From: Gemmatimonadota bacterium
GTDB taxonomy: Bacteria > Gemmatimonadota > Gemmatimonadetes > Longimicrobiales > Gaopeijiaceae
Assembly (NCBI GenBank): GCA_022823145.1
Contig: JAJDXS010000038.1
Coordinates: 1 to 64,000, forward strand
DNA length: 64,000 bases
Direction of reading: 5' to 3'
Below the pieces are notes generated by a model. That model made no database searches. It was not told the DNA's origin and saw only the letters and a program-made list of their open reading frames with translations. Made by a program: the position numbers and the translations under genes. Shown piece after piece: positions 1 to 8,699 of the stretch (the first letter of the stretch is position 1; each line of letters opens with the position of its first letter).

Positions 1-583
1 CCTCGGCCAGCGCCACGCCCGCTTGTCCGTTCGCCTCACGTATCGCCATGCCCTCGACGATACTACATTCGGGATCGCGTTACCAGACCCCCCCACGATC
101 CGTTCAGGGGGACGATCACCACGGCTTCACCGAACAGTTACTCTCGGATGAGTCAGCGGCCTGCGGCCAAGTCGGACCGACCCACCCGGCAGTCGAAACC
201 ATCCTGCGGGATCCCGTCGTCGCGAGTTGGCCGCGGCCGTCACCGGAACTCCCCATCGGTAACGTTGGCCACCTGGGCAGGGAGCTTCCTAATGCGACTC
301 TGGGATCACTGATGGACTGCTCTAGCCCCTGGGTTCCCGGCTAGCAACCGATGGCTCCCCGTTGTACCCTCCTGGCACGGCAACTCCGACAGAAGTCTGG
401 GGCCTGGGTCCCAAGCGAAGGCCCGGATGGCCAGTAGTGTCGCCATGATCGGATACGCGGCTAATCTCATCCCGTGGCCTTCGGCTCTCAAACCGACTTC
501 AAAACCGCGCCGACTGCGCACTCGCGCACGGTTCACGATGGTTTCGACACGAGCCACGGACAGCGTCGTTCGGGCTCGGGCTC
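1..583. other. No supported gene; left-edge region
   Basis: I see no convincing coding frame here. On the minus strand an ATG at 50-48 opens a frame reading off the left edge (MAIREANGQAGVALAE), which could be the start of a gene outside the window, but 16 residues without a spaced Shine-Dalgarno cannot establish it. The open frames on both strands have the Arg/Pro/Ser-rich composition expected of non-coding frames in GC-rich DNA. The downstream end of the plug-domain gene (stop at 584) bounds the region. Confidence 0.4.
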
Positions 584-1605
584 CTATCCTCCCCGACGGA
601 GCCAGATGAGGACCACACCACAGGAAGAGCCAGTGCCCCAATACTGCGGCGGCATTCCCCCGGTTCGCCGATAGACCTCGATGCCGGCCACGACCATCGG
701 GTTGAGAATATCGTTGATCTCGGCGGGTCCACGTCCGTTGCCGATCATGATCCCATCGAGATAGACGGCCGGAAAACAACTGGCCCCCATCTTGCGAAAC
801 GCGAGGAATTGGCGAGACGGCACTTGCGGGTCCATTACGGTCTGGACTCCGGGCAGGCGCATGAGCGCGTCGGTGATGCGCATGGATTCCAGAATTCGAG
901 ATCGTCCCGATCCACGAAGTCACCCCAGCCGTCCTCCTCCCTCTGGTAGAACCCAACACTCTCCAGATTCCTGTCCCGACGCTCCACGGCGACTTCGATC
1001 GGATCCAAGGCGATGGCCTCCACGGTCAAGGCCACATGGACCTTGGTGGCGTGACCGGTTTCGACTTCGATCATTGTCGAGCGCGGCTGATACCCCAGAT
1101 GCGAAAACGTGACTTCGTGCCCGCCGGAGACAAGCCCGGGCAGCCTGAAACGCCCGTCCACATCCGTGGTGGTCACGTGCCCGACGCCGGACACGTTCAC
1201 TACCACCTCGGGAATACGATCGCCGCTCACATTGTCCGTGACTACCCCGACGATCCCGGTGATCATGCTGTCGTTCGGGTCTTGAATGGGCTTCATACTC
1301 AAGAAGAGTTCTCCCGGCCGGTCGATCCTGAGGTCGCCATCGAGGCGCTCGTAGTCCTTATGGAAGAGCTGGAGGACATATGGACCACGGGGCACGTCGG
1401 CGATGACAAACTGGCCGTTCGCGTCGGTCAAGAGGCTGAGGCCCAGCGCCTCCACAACGACGATGACATCGGGGACCGGCTCGCCTGTCGCCTCGTCCAC
1501 CACGTGGCCGGTTATGGCCACCGTGGCGGCCTCCTGCGCGACTGTGGGTGGCACGGACAATGCGTTGGCCAAGGCAAGGAACGGGATCAGGCGGCGAAGA
1601 GTCAT
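584..1605 (-). pseudogene. Carboxypeptidase-regulatory / TonB-plug domain protein, frameshifted
   Basis: This is a secreted protein of a type common in the SusC-rich phyla: signal peptide, two carboxypeptidase-regulatory-like beta-sandwich repeats (GHVVDEATGEPVPDVIVVV and GVVTDNVSGDRIPEVVVNV), then a short TonB-plug-like tail (ITDALMRLPGVQTV, YLDGIMIGN) ending in CGVVLIWLRRGG. The two halves lie in different frames. The first frame runs through DDLEFWNP and the second resumes with MRITDALMRLPG at about 883. One extra C in the CC of AATCCATGCGC would restore NPMRITDAL, so a one-base deletion or assembly error is likely. The start at 1605 is preceded by GGGAGA at a good distance and begins MTLRRLIPFLALANALSVPP, a signal peptide. 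Repaired length would be about 340 residues. It is too short to form a barrel, so it is a plug-like domain protein rather than a full receptor. Confidence 0.72.
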
Positions 1606-2034
1606 GACCAATCTCCCGGCTGTCGTGCTCGCGGGCGGCGAATGCAATGATTGAGCCATTGTCCGTGACGGCGGCGCTGTGTGCCTGGCACGGATCGCGC
1701 TCGTGGCCTATCGCATTCCCCGATACGATACGGGCGGAGGACCGATGGCAGCAAGGAAGGATGACAGACTAATCCGGGGTTCGGGGGCCGGACGGAGGCG
1801 CTTACGGACGCTAAGCCAGCCGACGCCACGTTTAACGTTGCGGACTGGCAAGGGAGGGCTCCGCCCCCCTTTGACCCCCCGGATGCCGACGCTTCTACGG
1901 AGTGTCCCCGAGCGCGCCTCGCTCTCCTCTGCGGCGTCGTGATGGCGGATGCCATCCAAGTCGCGGCGAGTTCCGGTTCGGGCTGGATTACCGCGCTCCG
2001 GGAAGCTGCGATAGTGGGCATGGGCACTGGGATG
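1606..2034. other. Intergenic region carrying the left inverted repeat
   Basis: No gene is supported. The stretch separates the plug-domain gene from the sigma/anti-sigma operon and contains the left copy of a ~65-bp repeat at 1813-1880. The rest shows no clear promoter or terminator to the eye. Confidence 0.5.
1813..1880 (+). repeat. Left copy of ~65-bp inverted repeat
   Basis: The copy starts AAGCCAGC, contains an ACGTTTAACGTT core, then ACTGGC, a GGGCTCCGCCCCC palindromic block and ends GACCCCCC. The reverse complement of 5372-5433 follows the same order of blocks, with only small indels and substitutions. The AAGCCAG ends face outwards and the GACCCCC ends face inwards, bracketing the operon at 2035-5005. 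Such a pair may be terminal repeats of a non-autonomous element or two copies of a dispersed palindromic repeat. Confidence 0.8.
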
Positions 2035-3672
2035 TCAGTGGCCCAGACGCACGATCGCCACACGCTGCAGCTCCAAGGAGTCCTTCACCAATCCGATCGC
2101 CACCGAGTCCGTCAAGCGATAGGGTGTGAACCCATCGGGAAAAACGATCCTCTGGAATCTTGGGGCTGTGTCGTCCAAGGCGACCGTCATCCAGTTCCTG
2201 CCATACCCGAGGGGATGGGACGAACCGTCGAACTCCTGAATCCAGATCCGTTTAGGGGAGCAGTGCAGATCTATGCCGATCGGGGCTGCCTCCGGCAGGT
2301 GGCTGCCCGCCTGCCCCAGCATGTCCACGGCGGCGCGTTCGATCTCGTCGTCGCTGACGTTGGTTCCTTGCGTCTCGTTGCGCATCATCGCGCGGACATA
2401 GCCCAAACGCTCCTCATGCGTCAGCGGCCGGCTGGTCCAGGGCAGCGCAATCTGCCTGACTTTCGTGCCGCCGCGGCCGTAGAGATGAAGACTGCGGTCG
2501 ACCGGATCGAGCACGGCGACGACGCCATCGAAACACCCGTCCCACAGGGGCACCGGGGCGAGACCCATGGCTGGAACGCGGCTTGCGGCTCCGGGAAGGT
2601 CAACCGCGAAGTCCACGACCACGGTTGGCTCGACATCACCGTGCGCATGGCGCACGATCCTGCCGGTCCAGAAGTCGTCGCCGCGGGTGATCCCGCCGGG
2701 ATAGTTGGCCGTCCAGATTCCGGTGTCGTCCTCGGCGACCCGAAATGGATCTCCGAATGTCACGCTTCTAATGTCGGCCCGAATGGACTCCCGGGTGATG
2801 GTCGTGGGCGTTGAGGTCATGAAGTTGCCTCCCGCATCGAACTGGGAACGCCTGCGCGTGCCGAGATCCCAAGCGATCACCTCGCCGCCGGACGTTGCAG
2901 CGGAGAGGATCCAGGGGTTGCGGAGTTCCCCCGGCCCGTCGCCCGACTTGCCGAAGTCTGCGAGCATGCTACCGGAGCGATCGTAGGCCCGCAGAAAGGG
3001 TGCGGCTGCCGTGAGCACCCAGATCACCTCGCCGGACTCGATCATGTCGCGCACGCCCCACAACTCCTCACCCTCTTGGAAGATCGTGAGCGCCGAATGG
3101 GAGACCTCAAGCTCAACCGTCGATGTATCCGGAGGCTCGGAGGCGCATGACCCTGTGCCGAACACCCCGAGCGCCAGCAGCGGAAGGACCGGCTGTCTTA
3201 ACCGCAATTGTCTGTGAACGAACAGACTCGCCAAGGCCGCAAGAGAAGCGACTGCGGCGGCAAGGATCGGTGTCACGACCGCGCCCGGAGGTCGGAGGTA
3301 GCCGGTGCCGCCCATGAGGAGCAGGCCGGATCCGAGCGTCAGCGCGCAAGCGACGAAGCCGGAGAGCATGCCCAGCCACTCTCGCCACGCACCCTGTCCG
3401 GGAACGCCTCGTGCCTCGCGCTCCAAGGCACCCATGATCGCGTTCAGACTGGACTCCGAGAGTGGCGCATCCGACGCGCCGACCTGCCGGATCGAGGCGA
3501 TCAGGTGCATCGTCTCGCGCACCTCCGCATCTGAGGTCCCATCCGCCAACTCCGCTGTCGGTGCTGCATCGCCTTCCAGAACAGCCGAGACGAGACGGTC
3601 GATCTTCTGAGCGTCCATGTCGCCGCGTCCGGCCCCGCGCCGACCCGACAGAATTCGCATCTTCTTCATCAT
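2035..3672 (-). CDS. Anti-sigma-like membrane protein fused to a six-bladed beta-propeller
   Basis: The 545-residue protein begins with a ~95-residue hydrophilic cytosolic part (DMDAQKIDRLVSAVLEGDA) with no zinc-finger HxxxCxxC. Two membrane segments follow (about 100-120 and 131-152), then a third hydrophobic stretch (161-173) ending GTGSC like a lipobox, and a ~365-residue region resembling 6-bladed propeller lipoproteins (YDRSGSMLADFGKSGDGPGE). The ATG at 3672 has AAGGAG 7 nt upstream and overlaps the sigma factor stop as ATGA, so the two are translationally coupled. By family logic the N-terminus would hold the sigma factor and the propeller would sense something in the periplasm. An alternative is two proteins in one frame: an internal TTG or GTG near residues 152-156 could start a separate lipoprotein, though no strong ribosome site is visible there. 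The anti-sigma role is inferred from position and topology. Confidence 0.72.
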   Translation of the reverse strand: MMKKMRILSGRRGAGRGDMDAQKIDRLVSAVLEGDAAPTAELADGTSDAEVRETMHLIASIRQVGASDAPLSESSLNAIMGALEREARGVPGQGAWREWLGMLSGFVACALTLGSGLLLMGGTGYLRPPGAVVTPILAAAVASLAALASLFVHRQLRLRQPVLPLLALGVFGTGSCASEPPDTSTVELEVSHSALTIFQEGEELWGVRDMIESGEVIWVLTAAAPFLRAYDRSGSMLADFGKSGDGPGELRNPWILSAATSGGEVIAWDLGTRRRSQFDAGGNFMTSTPTTITRESIRADIRSVTFGDPFRVAEDDTGIWTANYPGGITRGDDFWTGRIVRHAHGDVEPTVVVDFAVDLPGAASRVPAMGLAPVPLWDGCFDGVVAVLDPVDRSLHLYGRGGTKVRQIALPWTSRPLTHEERLGYVRAMMRNETQGTNVSDDEIERAAVDMLGQAGSHLPEAAPIGIDLHCSPKRIWIQEFDGSSHPLGYGRNWMTVALDDTAPRFQRIVFPDGFTPYRLTDSVAIGLVKDSLELQRVAIVRLGH

Positions 3673-4247
3673 GGGGGTTCTCCTTGGCTAACAATCTCTT
3701 CGGCGAGCCAGTCCATTTGGCGCAGCTTCTTCAGGCCCCTGTGGATCAGCGAGCGAACCGAGACCTCCTTCACCGCCAGGAGCTGCGCCACCTCGGCGGT
3801 GCTCCGACCTTCGAGGATGCGCAGCAGGATTGCGTCCCGTTCGCGCGCCCTCAGCCGGTCAAGCGCCATGTAGAGGGCAGCCGCCCGTTCTTGGCGCTGC
3901 AACTGTTCGGCCGGACCGGGCGTGCGGTCCGGGAGCTCGCCGTGTTCGTCAAGGCGGACGAGGGGTTCGGGGCGACGTTTGCGCGCCTCCGTCCGGCAGA
4001 AATTCCTGCACACCGTCAGCGCCCACCCGAGAAAGGACCCCGTACCGGAGAAGCGCGCCCGCTTCCGGTAGATCCGGATCCAGCAGACCTGCAGCAGATC
4101 GGCTGCGTGGTCGTCATCACGGGCGTAGCCACGGATCACTCGGAGCATTCGCGGAGACGTCTCCCGGACCAGATGGCGAAACAGCGCGCGGTCTCCCGCA
4201 TGAAATCGCTCCCGGTCGAAGCCGACGCTGCCATCGTGCGCAGTCAC
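3669..4247 (-). CDS. ECF-type RNA polymerase sigma factor
   Basis: Sigma-70 family factor of extracytoplasmic-function size (192 residues). Region 2 is seen in LFRHLVRETSPRMLRVIRGY and DDHAADLLQVCWIRIYRKRARF followed by GSFLGWALTVCRNFCRTEARKR; region 4 in LDRLRARERDAILLRILEGR and STAEVAQLLAVKEVSVRSLI, the helix-turn-helix contacting the -35 element. The chosen start is GTG at 4247: GAGGG lies 8 nt upstream and GTGA overlaps the stop of the upstream membrane gene. A longer frame beginning at 4313 would intrude into that gene without a ribosome site. The downstream gene overlaps by ATGA and is the likely anti-sigma partner. Target promoters cannot be seen from the window. Confidence 0.93.
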   Translation of the reverse strand: MTAHDGSVGFDRERFHAGDRALFRHLVRETSPRMLRVIRGYARDDDHAADLLQVCWIRIYRKRARFSGTGSFLGWALTVCRNFCRTEARKRRPEPLVRLDEHGELPDRTPGPAEQLQRQERAAALYMALDRLRARERDAILLRILEGRSTAEVAQLLAVKEVSVRSLIHRGLKKLRQMDWLAEEIVSQGEPP

Positions 4248-5005
4248 CGTGCGGACCCTCGATTGGGACGGGTGAACGCGTACAGGATCCCTGCTGCAAC
4301 AAGCGGCAAACACAGGGGAAGCACGAACAGCAGGCCTCCCCAGGCCGCTTGATATCCAACCAGTTCATCGGCGATGGCCACAGGAATCCAGAAAGCCGCG
4401 AACAGGAATCCGCCCGAAAGCCACCGTGTGACGTAGCGGGGCCAAGTGGACAACCGACGGGTCAATCCTCCGGTCAGATCACCCAGCACGGCTGCCACCG
4501 CAACGAACGCCGCGTTCGCGATCGGCACGAGCAGCGTTCCCAGGTCGTTGGCCGCTCTACGCAAGTACCTTGCGGCCTCGTTTCCTGTCGAGGCCTCCGC
4601 AGCGGCTTGCGAGGACCTCACGGAATGGACGAGTGCGTTGGGCAGCGGCCAGTCGGCGCCAGTCCACCTCGGGAACATGGGTAGCACAAGGGACGGCAGG
4701 GCGTATGCCGCCACCGCCAGCATCGCGAGGAGGATGCAGCGGCGACGCAGCAAACCGGCAGAACCCTCTCCGAGAATGCCGCAGCCGTTCAGAGCCGCGG
4801 CGAACACCGCGGGTGGGAGGATCTGGACAACCATGCCGGGTATTCGTCTCGCCACCATCTCGAGGAAGTCCGAGACCGCATCCGGCCTCCCCCAGAAATG
4901 CGTTGCCGAATACGCGAGGTACACGGCCAGAAGGATGACAACCCAGATCGCGACACGCCTGGTGAAGTCGGACTCCGGCTTCGTATGGGACTTGGTCACG
5001 GTCAT
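4244..5005 (-). CDS. Six-TM LptF/LptG-like membrane protein lacking the periplasmic domain
   Basis: Integral membrane protein of 253 residues with six predicted helices at about 16-34, 54-76, 90-111, 157-175, 196-214 and 222-243. The stretch RRIPGMVVQILPPAVFAAAL, then GILGEGSAGLLRRR, is reminiscent of LptF/LptG lipopolysaccharide-export permeases (pattern P..V.QILP.AVLLA, then G.L...SE...LR). In that family a large jellyroll domain sits between helices 3 and 4; here the gap is only about 45 residues. The protein is therefore either a stripped LptFG-like permease or an unrelated six-TM protein. It is first in a three-gene operon and its stop overlaps the sigma factor start (GTGA), which points to a role in the same envelope-linked regulatory unit. 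The family assignment is by eye and uncertain; membrane location is secure. Confidence 0.6.
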   Translation of the reverse strand: MTVTKSHTKPESDFTRRVAIWVVILLAVYLAYSATHFWGRPDAVSDFLEMVARRIPGMVVQILPPAVFAAALNGCGILGEGSAGLLRRRCILLAMLAVAAYALPSLVLPMFPRWTGADWPLPNALVHSVRSSQAAAEASTGNEAARYLRRAANDLGTLLVPIANAAFVAVAAVLGDLTGGLTRRLSTWPRYVTRWLSGGFLFAAFWIPVAIADELVGYQAAWGGLLFVLPLCLPLVAAGILYAFTRPNRGSAR

Positions 5006-5371
5006 GTGCGCACCCCCGTGGTGCAGGTGATCTCTCCCGGTCCGGCACTCGCGCCGAACGCGGCTGTTCTACAAGAGGGGACGCCAAATCGGCGGCGTCC
5101 GTTGCGAAATGCCCTGGCCAACGGGTGGACTGAGGCTCAGCGAAGCGTGGCTGAGCGGGTGCCGCTCTTCGTCGCGATAGTCCTTTCGAACCCGTCTGCA
5201 GCGGAACCCTTGCCTTCGGCCGTAGCCTGACCGGATGGAGATTGCCGAGCGCGCACCCCGCCGGGGTGCTGGTCGCGACATCGCGACTTAGCGGCCATCC
5301 GGGCGCTTCCCGGTGCACGGGGGCGTCACCCCCATTCCCGCGAACTCCCTGGGGAGGGCGCGGGGCCTCTT

Positions 5372-5433
5372 GGGGGTCGAGGGGGCGGAGCCCCTCGCCA
5401 GTCGCAAACGTTAAACGTTGCGTGTGCTGGCTT
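5372..5433 (-). repeat. Right copy of ~65-bp inverted repeat
   Basis: Reverse-complement copy of the element at 1813-1880. Read on the minus strand it gives AAGCCAGC, then the ACGTTTAACGTT core, then GCGACTGGC, GGGGCTCCGCCCCC and GACCCCC. The core is itself a near-palindrome (CGCAAACGTTAAACGTTGCG on the plus strand), and the GC block is a second small inverted repeat. Confidence 0.8.
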
Positions 5434-5461
5434 GACCACACTAACAGTGGTCCAAGCCAGC
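5426..5461. repeat. 14-bp stem-loop at the outer edge of the right repeat
   Basis: GCTGGCTTGACCAC (5426-5439) pairs with GTGGTCCAAGCCAGC (5447-5461) through 14 base pairs with a single bulged base and a 7-nt loop (ACTAACA). A second perfect hairpin, CGGGCG-AA-CGCCCG, follows immediately. There is no U-run, so it is not a classical terminator; its position at the edge of the inverted repeat suggests a recombination or transposition end. Confidence 0.65.
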
Positions 5462-5902
5462 CGGGCGAACGCCCGCAAGACGCTCCACAGCGCCGCCCGA
5501 GACGGCAATCATCCGACCGCCGCGGGCGACCTCCTCCGCCTCTTGGTGGAAGGCCTCACGGACGGCGAGGGCAACGGGCGACCCCGTCACCTTCCTGACG
5601 AGGGCAGCGCTCTCTGCCGATCGCCGGTTTCCGCCCTACCTCTACCCCTCGGGAACCCGAGATCGTCGATCTGAAGCGATTCTGTGGCCCGTAGATTACC
5701 CGAAATGCCTCCGAGCCGTCCCAAAACGGCCTCTGAAGCCCGGTCGCGAGGTCAGATCAGGTCTCGGAGCCTGCTCACCGGCCCGCGAGGTGCGCTGCCC
5801 AGCCGTCGATGAGCCGCCGTTGATCTGGCCGCGTGATTCCGCTAGGCTGTTCCTCCGGTTCCCCGGCAAAGGGAATGACACTGACCGGAAGGAATTGCGC
5901 CA

Positions 5903-5965
5903 ATGGCGATGATGAAGCGGTATATGGAAATCTGCCGAGAGATGAGAGCCGTACCGATGACGTGA
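5903..5965 (+). CDS. 20-residue mini-ORF upstream of acidic small protein
   Basis: The frame MAMMKRYMEICREMRAVPMT starts at an ATG with AAGGA about 9 nt upstream. It ends in TGA whose last base is the A of the next ATG (TGATG at 5963-5967). It may be a leader peptide that couples translation of the next frame, or the 5' half of a single small gene split by a frameshift. No family is recognisable and the reality of the peptide is uncertain. Confidence 0.35.
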   Translation: MAMMKRYMEICREMRAVPMT

Positions 5966-6102
5966 TGCTCTACTATCTGGCCCTGAAGGAGCTTTTGCGC
6001 GACGAAGGGTTCTTTGAGCACGAGGCTCTGGAGGACCACGACCCGGAGGAGTTGCTGCGGGCGTTTGCCAACGAGGCAGAGTTGGAAGAGGAAGACACCT
6101 AG
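5965..6102 (+). CDS. Small acidic protein, unknown
   Basis: Forty-five residues, MLYYLALKELLRDEGFFEHE then a Glu/Asp-rich tail ending ELEEEDT, with no recognisable domain. Its ATG overlaps the stop of the preceding mini-ORF (TGATG), which would allow translational re-initiation. It ends 11 nt before the KilA-N gene on the same strand, so both are probably one transcript. The frame is open further upstream (to 5833), but that extension has unnatural composition. A tiny acidic partner beside a DNA-binding protein could be an antitoxin-like or DNA-mimic factor; this is speculation from charge and position only. Confidence 0.45.
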   Translation: MLYYLALKELLRDEGFFEHEALEDHDPEELLRAFANEAELEEEDT

Positions 6103-6113
6103 ATTCCTGAATA

Positions 6114-6899
6114 ATGGCCCAGTCCGAACTGCCTCTGATCACCCACAAGGTCGAGAACCGAATCGTCCAGCAGCGGGCGCACGACGGATACATCAACGCG
6201 ACCGAGATGTGTAGGGCAGCCGGGAGGCTCATCGGCGACTACGGCAGACTGAAGACCACCAAAGCCTACATGTCCGCGTTGAGCACCGATATGGGAATCC
6301 CCATAACGGAACTCGTGCAACGAGTTAGGGGTGGTCATCCCGATCTTCAAGGGACATGGGTGCATCCTCGGGTAGCGATCCATCTCGCCCAGTGGCTATC
6401 TCCCGATTTCGCCGTTCAGGTAAGTGATTGGGTCTTCCGGTGGATGACTGGGCAAATCGCCCGAGAGGCAATGCCCGAGCACGTACGTCGGTATGCCATC
6501 AACCAACACAAGATTCCCCTCACGCATTTCTCGATGCTGAACCAGATGACCTTCCGACTCCTCGGTCCATTGGAAATCCAAGGGTACATCGTACCCGCCC
6601 AGCTCATGCCGGACATTGCGTTCGGTAAGATGTTCTCGAAGTGGCTCCGGGAACAAGGCGAGAACCCGGAGAGTTTTCCGACCTATCCGCATGAGTTCCT
6701 GGAAGGCGACCCGCGTCCGACCGTTCAAGCCCGTCTCTACCCGAATCGGCTGATGACACCGTTCAACCGGCAAGCCGATCTGTGGCTTCGGGACGGGCGG
6801 GCAATGAAGTACTTCAGGGAGCGGGACGAGAATGCGATCCTACCGCTGGAGAAGGTGCTACAGGCCTTGCCATCGCCTCCGAAAAAGCTACTTGGCTAA
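6114..6899 (+). CDS. KilA-N domain protein
   Basis: The first ~110 of 261 residues are a clear KilA-N domain, the DNA-binding module of phage and large DNA virus proteins: GYINATEMCRAAGRLIGDY at about 25-43 and GTWVHPRVAIHLAQWLSPDF at 80-99, followed by AVQVSDWVFRWMTGQ. The C-terminal ~150 residues (INQHKIPLTHFSMLNQMTFR, ending LQALPSPPKKLLG) are not recognised and resemble neither the usual ANT/KilAC tail nor a nuclease I can name. It is the largest cargo of a small island with an integrase 350 bp away in the opposite direction. Codon use is less GC-extreme than in the flanking operons, consistent with transfer. Likely a mobile-element regulator. Confidence 0.85.
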   Translation: MAQSELPLITHKVENRIVQQRAHDGYINATEMCRAAGRLIGDYGRLKTTKAYMSALSTDMGIPITELVQRVRGGHPDLQGTWVHPRVAIHLAQWLSPDFAVQVSDWVFRWMTGQIAREAMPEHVRRYAINQHKIPLTHFSMLNQMTFRLLGPLEIQGYIVPAQLMPDIAFGKMFSKWLREQGENPESFPTYPHEFLEGDPRPTVQARLYPNRLMTPFNRQADLWLRDGRAMKYFRERDENAILPLEKVLQALPSPPKKLLG

Positions 6900-6939
6900 C
6901 CCTGTTTAGTAGCGTCCTCCCACTGCCCGGCGAGCCGGT

Positions 6940-6967
6940 CGAGGGTCCCGGCTGGCGAGGGTCCCGG
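6940..6967 (+). repeat. 12-bp direct repeat between KilA-N and the 59-residue ORF
   Basis: CGAGGGTCCCGG occurs at 6940-6951 and again at 6956-6967, a 16-bp period. It sits in the short gap just upstream of the small ORF at 6992 and could be a binding site, for example for the KilA-N protein; that is only a guess. Confidence 0.45.
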
Positions 6968-6991
6968 AATCAATCAACACCAAGGAGAAGC

Positions 6992-7171
6992 ATGAAGATC
7001 GCCGAGATCAAGGTTGAGTATCATCCACGCTCACCAAAAGCCACCGGTTACTCAGTCCACCTGACGGAGAAAGGCATGGAGGTCCTGCATTGGTGGCTGG
7101 CTAATGCTAATGGGAAAATACCCGACGATTTGCTAAAAGCGCTTCGGCAGACGGGGGTGCTTCCAAAATGA
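6992..7171 (+). CDS. Small hypothetical protein (59 aa)
   Basis: MKIAEIKVEYHPRSPKATGY leads into VHLTEKGMEVLHWWLANANG and ends GVLPK. The ATG at 6992 has a textbook AAGGAG 4-5 nt ahead; the longer open frame to the left runs through the end of the KilA-N gene and is ignored. No family recognised. It could be an island-borne regulator or antitoxin-size protein; there is no membrane segment or metal motif. Confidence 0.65.
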   Translation: MKIAEIKVEYHPRSPKATGYSVHLTEKGMEVLHWWLANANGKIPDDLLKALRQTGVLPK

Positions 7172-7251
7172 GCCACCGATGTCGGGCCTGCACCAGAAAA
7201 ACGCCTAGCCCACCAACTCCCGGCACATAAGCGACTTACTGCGCAGGTTGC

Positions 7252-8454
7252 TCACTGAGCTAAGTAGCTCGCCCAATCCTCCATGAGCCGCCTCCGCCGC
7301 TCGAACAGGTCCGTCCGCAGGTACGCCGCTTCGACCTTGTTCTGAACGACGTGCGCCAGCGCCGCCTCGACGACCTCCCGGGGATGGTCCGTCCCCTCGG
7401 CCGCCCAATCACGAAACGACGACCGGAACCCGTGAGGCACCGCCGAGATTCCGCAACTCTGGAGCAATCGGCCCGGCCGCTTCCGGGTCAACGGCTTCCC
7501 GCGCTCGTTGACGAACACGATCACACTCGCCCCGTCCCCCAGCTTGCGCGCCGCGTCGAGGATCTCCAACGCCCGGCCGGACAACGGCACCCGGTGCTCG
7601 CGGGCGGTCTTCGTCCGGCTTGCCGGAATCGTCCACACGCCCGCACCTTGGTCGATCTCCGCCCACACCGCCCCGCGGACCTCGCCGCCATGCGCCGCCG
7701 TCAGGACCAGAAACTCGAAGGCCAACGTGTCCACCTTCCCCGGCTTCGCCGCCCGCACCTTGGCGATGGCAGCCGCGACCTCGCCGTGAGGCAGGGCCTT
7801 GCGGTGGGTGACGACATCGTGCTGGGGGCCGAGCACCGGCAGGAGCCGGTCGCAGGGGTTGTCGGTCCGCCAGTCCATGGCAACGGCCCACTCCAGCACT
7901 GCGCGGATGCGCAGGCGGACGGCGCGGGCGACCTTCGGCCTCGCGTGCCAGATCGGGGACAGCGTCTCCAGCACGTCGCCGCTGGTGATCTCGGAGACCG
8001 GCAGGTTGCCGAGGCGCGGGAAGGCATACATCTCCAGCGAGCGAATCCAGAGCCTCGCGGTCTTCGGGCTGCGCCACCCGGCGCGCTTCTGCTCGATGAC
8101 GCGCCCGGCGGCCTCGGCGAAGGTCGGCACGCCGTAGGACCGGCGCTTCTCGGCCAGCGGATCGCCGCCCGCGCGGGCCAGCTTCCGGTTCGCCAGCGCC
8201 TGCTCGCGGGCCTCGGCCAGCGAGACGAGGACGACGCTGCCGAGACCGATCTCTCGCTTGCGGCCCCGGACGACGAGCCGCTGGATCCAGCTGCGGGTTC
8301 CGGTCTTCTTGACGTAGAGGTACAGGCCGTTGCCGTCGCAGTGTCTTCCGGGCGGAGCCGAGCGCACGAAGGCGGCGGACAGCCGGTTGTGGGGATGGCG
8401 GCCCCTGGGCTTGCCTCGGCGGCGCTGGGTGCGGGAACTGGTGACATTATTCAT
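7252..8454 (-). CDS. P4-type tyrosine recombinase/integrase, catalytic Arg replaced
   Basis: A 400-residue integrase of the phage P4 / DUF4102 type: N-terminal arm-binding domain (DGNGLYLYVKKTGTRSWIQR at 40-59), SAM-like core-binding domain (about 110-200) and a C-terminal catalytic domain. HGFR (His341, Arg344), His368 in ALAH and the nucleophile Tyr378 in EAAY are all present. At the position of the first catalytic arginine (family pattern LTAARSGEVRG) this protein reads LTAAHGGEVRG; His255 is encoded by CAT at 7692-7690, a single transition away from CGT. Unless Arg260 can substitute, strand cleavage should be badly impaired and the island immobile. Alignment is by eye. It faces the KilA-N gene, and no tRNA or attachment repeats are seen next to it. 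Confidence 0.92.
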   Translation of the reverse strand: MNNVTSSRTQRRRGKPRGRHPHNRLSAAFVRSAPPGRHCDGNGLYLYVKKTGTRSWIQRLVVRGRKREIGLGSVVLVSLAEAREQALANRKLARAGGDPLAEKRRSYGVPTFAEAAGRVIEQKRAGWRSPKTARLWIRSLEMYAFPRLGNLPVSEITSGDVLETLSPIWHARPKVARAVRLRIRAVLEWAVAMDWRTDNPCDRLLPVLGPQHDVVTHRKALPHGEVAAAIAKVRAAKPGKVDTLAFEFLVLTAAHGGEVRGAVWAEIDQGAGVWTIPASRTKTAREHRVPLSGRALEILDAARKLGDGASVIVFVNERGKPLTRKRPGRLLQSCGISAVPHGFRSSFRDWAAEGTDHPREVVEAALAHVVQNKVEAAYLRTDLFERRRRLMEDWASYLAQ

Positions 8455-8699
8455 TCCCTAATCGTAGCCGGGATGGCAATGGATTGCAAGGGACGAAGCC
8501 GGTGGAAGAAAGCGGGAGAAGCTAGACCTAACCTGTTGATATACAGGTTGTTATGGAACTCTATGAACACCTATGAACGATAGTGGATTTCAGTTATCCG
8601 CATCAATGGCTGAATGGGACAGAATCGACCGCGACCGGCAGGCCCAGAGGATCCCTCGCATTCGGGTCGGCCCCGGAACGCAGGTTCGACCGCTTCCCG

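Follow-up and report, generated by a model that had tools for sequence, protein, structure and literature searches.

The Gene Block and Its Flanking Repeats

The stretch of DNA analysed here (the window, 64,000 nucleotides) begins at base 1 of a 102-kb contig (JAJDXS010000038.1) that belongs to a 4.49-Mb metagenome-assembled genome of Candidatus Palauibacter (Gemmatimonadota). The habitat of the Palauibacter group has been described (PMC10469786), and related records, named Candidatus Palauibacter or Gemmatimonadetes bacterium, apparently come from sponge and coral metagenomes. Near the start of the window, three genes on the minus strand are enclosed by two inverted repeats, which are very probably two inward-facing origins of transfer (oriTs) of the ColE1 type. 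Sequence comparison suggests that the block they enclose is one exchangeable cargo among many, carried on helper-dependent mobile islands that marine sponge bacteria share, and not a stand-alone transposon.

The inverted pair (1813-1887 against 5364-5433) shares 79% identity over 75 nt in a BLAST comparison within the window (E ~1e-11), and the gapped alignment spans AAGCCAGC...GACCCCC at both repeat ends. The distal repeat (1813-1879, plus strand; CTGGCAAGGG...TTTGACCCCC) is of a variant called A-type, and GACCCCC forms its inner side, towards the cargo; its candidate nick, CTGG/CTTA (the slash marks the cut), lies on the minus strand at 1815/1816. The proximal repeat (5372-5433, minus strand; CTGGCGAGGGG...CTCGACCCCC) is G-type, the type seen upstream of mobC, and its candidate nick, CTGG/CTTG, lies on the plus strand at 5430/5431. 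A further hairpin, H0 (5426-5461, plus strand; GCTGGCTTG-ACCAC...GTGGT-CCAAGCCAGC), occupies the leading side of this candidate nick. The first-pass annotation, made from the letters alone, had placed both repeats correctly around the three genes, and the 4-nt gene overlaps that it read are exact (GTGA at 4244-4247, ATGA at 3669-3672). Rfam gave nothing relevant in the window or in the sister loci.

The first gene of the trio (4244-5005, minus strand) encodes a 253-aa membrane protein of no recognised family, whose conservation is confined to the genus set searched. It had been labelled LptFG-like, a name to be dropped because its match to PF03739 (LptF/LptG) covers 38 residues and scores 15.7 bits against a family cut-off of 27.9 (E 0.008); an identity as an LptF/LptG permease is not supported. 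The second gene (3669-4247, minus strand, GTG start, 192 aa) is an extracytoplasmic function (ECF) sigma factor, as had been proposed: it matches TIGR02937 (E 1.8e-30) and PF04542/PF08281, with sigma-70 regions 2 and 4 both above cut-off. The third (2035-3672, minus strand) encodes a putative anti-sigma factor of 545 aa, with a hydrophobic, membrane N-terminal part and a propeller-like C-terminal part; because it has zero Pfam matches (its sole NCBIfam match is a weak one of NHL type), this role is inferred. A signalling function for the sigma factor, membrane protein and propeller together is plausible.

Identity of the Repeats

The repeat recurs throughout the genus Candidatus Palauibacter. 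About ten copies are present in the window's own genome, mostly at contig ends or on contigs of 3-4 kb, and a covariance model built from 31 copies finds 5-32 sites per genome in five genomes. Covariation supports its hairpin: there are 50 double-change cells against 18.8 +/- 4.0 in shuffled alignments, and the covariation score is 0.26, where slid pairings reach no more than 0.08. Among adjacent motifs (within 6 kb of each other, three duplicated loci removed), 21 pairs face inward, none outward and two are direct (P 3e-11 against random orientation). The two ends also differ in type, the proximal one being G-type in 30 of 33 islands and the distal one A-type in 10 of 16, so that the cassette has a direction; the types are swapped in a few loci (L018, L115 and L071). 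An origin of the family as repetitive extragenic palindromic (REP) sequences moved by REP-associated tyrosine transposases (RAYT) was rejected, since the Y1 transposase family is absent from eight genomes in which positive controls were detected.

The assignment as oriT follows from the position of the repeat relative to mobC, from matches in plasmids and from the ColE1 nick sequence. Where genes for MobC and a relaxase occur, the repeat lies some 20-90 bp upstream of mobC. It is directly upstream, with the GACCCCC side facing mobC, in eight clear loci (L056, L059, L067, L071, L178, L193, L194 and L195; L181 shows the L071 copy once more), each of these copies is G-type, and in several of these loci a relaxase gene follows. 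The MobC proteins match PF05713/PF21983 and the relaxases PF03432; the best NCBIfam model for the relaxase is that of ColE1 MbeA (E 2e-34, below the strict cut-off of the model), and related relaxases are found in 3129 plasmid records. A covariance model made from Palauibacter repeats only (R1) has a single hit in each of four mobilizable plasmids, from Citrobacter, Aeromonas, Methylomarinovum and Polaromonas (E 1.8e-11 to 5.1e-6), every time upstream of mobC; through R1 the distal repeat, too, is homologous to these plasmid oriT regions. The distance from the nick-like position to mobC is 93-134 bp in Palauibacter and 97-173 bp in the plasmids. The ColE1 nic sequence has been given as CTGGCTTA, accompanied by inverted repeats and located 52 bp upstream of MobC (PMC5703827). 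In the window, too, an inverted repeat adjoins CTGG/CTT(A/G), with CTTA at the distal and CTTG at the proximal end, matching the ColE1 oriT. Beyond this published account, what is said here of the ColE1 nick position is general background.

Cargo Exchange between the Repeats

The first-pass annotation had asked whether the repeats always accompany the trio and had named two outcomes that would speak against it; both occurred. Copies of the repeat flank many other cargoes: between inward pairs lie beta-propeller proteins, a periplasmic binding protein, a PD-(D/E)XK protein, a leucine-rich-repeat protein, a candidate defence family protein and relaxase modules, and one pair (L143) encloses merely 167 nt of non-coding DNA. 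Conversely, four genomes of the set (G015, G009, G006 and G010) have homologues of the trio around which the 13-18 kb examined contain no repeat. Because of these motif-free homologues, the trio is regarded as genes resident in the genus that were captured as cargo in G000, G032 and G007 (in the last, one motif was found).

The movement of the block, which had also been suggested, is supported in a changed form. The trio block is 98% identical in the window and in contig C92 of G032, where it has the same distal end and an unrelated flank, and the match breaks off precisely where the distal AGCCAGC begins, at the outer edge of the repeat. Homologous cargo from different loci was compared in nine cases; in each, the shared sequence ends on at least one side 0-8 bp from the outer edge of the repeat, and these joints coincide with the place of the candidate nick. 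The reverse case is given by G000:C27 and G010:C16, which are 98% identical over 6.8 kb outside the distal repeat and 93% identical in the integrase and in the non-coding unit next to it (U450, below), with unrelated cargo in between. The sharing of one inward pair by many cargoes, together with homology ending 0-8 bp from the nick, thus argues for a block that moves, with repeats that are not specific to the trio.

Inverted ends at which the homology of a block stops, and a minimal pair with 167 nt between its ends, are also what a transposon would leave, with the repeats as terminal inverted repeats and a transposase elsewhere moving the block. No transposase was recognised in the cassettes examined, the ends show homology to the oriT regions that precede mobC in plasmids, and they stand at a fixed distance from an integrase, which together make this explanation very unlikely.

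Candidate defence families (PDC-S11, PDC-S14 and PDC-S26) and a type IIG restriction enzyme were also observed beside or between the motifs (L016 2154-3569, L022 323-3070, L054 4180-5310 and L066 6890-8251).

The Integrase Island

The proximal oriT-like repeat opens a non-coding unit of about 448 nt, U450 (5372-5819, plus strand), which extends towards the 3' end of a tyrosine integrase gene (7252-8454, minus strand). The integrase is P4-type (domains Arm-DNA-bind_3, Phage_int_M and Phage_integrase) and has 11 matches in its own genome; what is said here of P4-type integrases we take to be general knowledge. U450 is repeated in the same genome and in 16 of 18 other genomes of the genus, and most full copies adjoin the 3' end of a P4-type integrase gene. 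Among 31 loci with room for it, the motif lies downstream of the integrase 3' end in 23, in a single fixed orientation and mostly 310-356 bp away.

On its other side the integrase unit reaches about 150-170 bp beyond the start of the integrase gene, and the flank past this boundary is 95% identical in G002 and G015, both of which have no integrase there. An attachment core (ATGGCTGAATGGGACA, 8606-8621, plus strand) marks the right end of the island. A left core (ATGGCTCGATGGG) occurs at a joint close to the beginning of C82, another contig of this genome, and comparison between strains for empty sites, which the first-pass annotation had proposed, yielded an unoccupied site of the integrase island with one core copy (G010:C55). 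C82 and the window contig share their flanks with this empty site and are inferred to carry the two ends of one island, which is, judging by these ends, a case of normal site-specific integration. The same comparison for the minimal island of G032 gave no counterpart, its flank being found in no other genome.

The attachment core at 8606-8621 shows that the integrase works at a site other than the repeats, and an action on the repeats themselves was rejected. The position of the core also bears on the possibility that the block is a phase-variable switch, inverted between the repeats by the adjacent integrase. Inverted sites next to a tyrosine recombinase, and end types that are swapped in L018, L115 and L071, would suit such a switch, but the core lies on the 5' side of the integrase, homologous propeller cargo has one orientation at four loci and the two ends are of different type. 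It is considered highly improbable, and phase-variable inversion was rejected on the distant core and the constant orientation of homologous cargo.

A second family of tyrosine recombinases (INT2) is inserted in the oriT hairpin of several sister islands (L113 9440-9700, L118 9440-9680, L144 8880-9100 and L058 8340-8560), and another INT2 unit splits an integrase gene, with a 12-bp repeat (TGCTGGAGACGC). INT2 was rejected as the mover of all cargo, since it also inserts in an unrelated target and is absent from most cargoes. An integron-like capture, in which INT2 or the island integrase would place cargo at hairpin sites, has in its favour the folded sites, the adjoining integrase, the varied cargo and the INT2 units within the hairpin at these four loci. 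It is nevertheless held to be unlikely: the sites match oriT and not attC, INT2 has further targets (the 12-bp core in the integrase gene), and its insertions fit the known habit of certain elements of integrating into oriT (PMC7563843). Those elements resemble the INT2 units in sitting in the oriT hairpin and differ in their integrase and hosts, and the window has no such insertion. Integron gene cassettes likewise consist of varied cargo between folded sites beside an integrase, but here the site pairs are inverted and not direct like attC, they are homologous to oriT and the integrase is P4-type, and an integron proper was rejected.

Proposed Working of the Island and Related Systems

The reading preferred here, to which a probability of roughly 70% is given, is that the island is an oriT-only integrative mobilizable element with inward-facing ColE1/MOBP-type origins, between which cargo would be swapped as a block with joints at the nick. 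The island would belong to, or derive from, elements with the order integrase, oriT, mobC and relaxase, the trio occupying the place that mobC and the relaxase have in sister elements. The integrase would excise the island at ATGGCTnnATGGGAC; MobC and a relaxase from a sister element (mobC and relaxase genes are present elsewhere in the same genome, on C19 and C43, with L193 and L194 among the loci above) would act in trans and nick CTGG/CTT at the proximal oriT; and a conjugation channel supplied by another element would export the strand, U450 and the integrase going ahead and the cargo following at the end.

Known oriT-only integrative mobilizable elements (iOriT; mobilizable genomic islands with oriT mimicry; reviewed in PMC11389934) are similar in having an integrase, attachment sites, an oriT like that of another element and a dependence on helpers, which the window island would share; no relaxase was seen in the part of the window island that can be read. 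They differ in that here the cargo lies between two inward-facing oriTs and is exchanged as a block. With the oriT-mobC-relaxase modules of ColE1/MOBP plasmids (MbeA, MOBHEN; PMC5703827) the loci share the hairpin, a GC-rich second hairpin, CTGG/CTT, the place upstream of mobC and an MbeA-related relaxase. Unlike those modules, they are chromosomal integrase islands in Gemmatimonadota, the window cargo replaces mobC and the relaxase, and the Palauibacter relaxase has H-x7-H-x-H in place of HEN. Strand-biased circularizing elements (SE; PMC9345347) also combine tyrosine recombinases with inverted end motifs, but their ends are 19-bp core sites, they have a four-gene intA-intB module and there is no oriT at their ends. 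The papers searched gave nothing relevant on paired inverted oriTs around cargo.

That the paired inward oriTs constitute a cassette-exchange system, in which a relaxase would cut and rejoin at both nicks and so swap blocks within and between sponge-symbiont species, is a more tentative proposal, with the odds against it. Relaxase-driven exchange at the nick is plausible, and is conceivable because a relaxase is able to link the DNA it has transferred to another copy of its oriT, as is reported for TrwC (PMC3264647). A serious rival for the exchange step, which leaves the identity of the repeats as oriTs untouched, is plain homologous recombination between copies of oriT or U450, shuffling the cargo with no site-specific enzyme; it is possible, if doubtful as the whole explanation. 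The many copies per genome and the mosaic integrase genes of L060 and L065 speak for it, and against it stand the shortness of the ends (just 60-120 bp at ~75-85% identity) and the joints, which fall at one point beside the candidate nick and are not scattered.

Several points weigh against the oriT-only element with swapped cargo. The exact position of the joints could also be obtained by homologous recombination between oriT copies, transfer does not need two inverted oriTs, and the distal A-type copy was never found adjoining mobC. No relaxase is present in positions 1-8623 of the window, although the island continues to the left on a different contig, where one is possible. Finally, the evidence consists of sequences throughout, for the most part from metagenome assemblies. 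Their contigs often break at the repeats, which could conceal rearrangements, and foreign contigs are possible in some bins.

In uncultured bacteria an origin of transfer is difficult to recognise, and oriT-only islands are believed to account for a large unseen share of gene flow; a single repeat family here supplies numerous candidate oriTs together, along with a cognate relaxase and a clue to the base that is cut. If the paired arrangement is a cassette system, conjugation relaxases would perform a function until now attributed to transposases and integrons, and this would help to explain the movement of envelope-sensor and candidate defence genes among sponge symbionts, also between phyla.

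Further Features and Variation among Copies

Left of the distal repeat, and within the presumed island, lies a fragment of a gene for a carboxypeptidase-regulatory-domain protein (835-1659, minus strand). Between U450 and the 3' end of the integrase there is an insert (5819-7270, plus strand) bounded by 22-bp direct repeats (5797-5818 and 7271-7292). It carries a KilA-N gene (6114-6899, plus strand) whose product is strongly similar to BstA, an abortive-infection protein (PHROG 6287, E 6e-46; PADLOC BstA, E 2e-10).

The mosaic integrase genes were seen at L060 (4402-5628) and L065 (7674-8870), which match in cargo, in U450 and in the C-terminal portion of the integrase and differ in its N-terminal portion. 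Relatives of the integrase are also present on long contigs labelled Acidobacteriota and Bryobacterales (L123, L130 and L145), and in two of these cases portions of U450 or of the motif occur as well. A spread of the integrase module across phyla is likely, the case being strongest on these long contigs; shorter contigs labelled Gammaproteobacteria that carry the module could be mis-binned.

The surroundings of the motif vary as well. In at least five copies of the window's own genome (L017, L022, L023, L194 and L197), CATGATTATGAGAGACAAGCCAGC... replaces U450/H0 beside the motif. The AGCC beside the candidate nick has undergone tandem expansion in some islands (L096 3480-3800, L143 9830-9880 and L057 4680-4800), with about 7-8 copies in G032 and one in the window. 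Two complete single-contig genomes (G001 and G033) contain few or no intact integrase copies, and their motifs, only 5-7 in number, are single and scattered; the system looks as though it has decayed in them.

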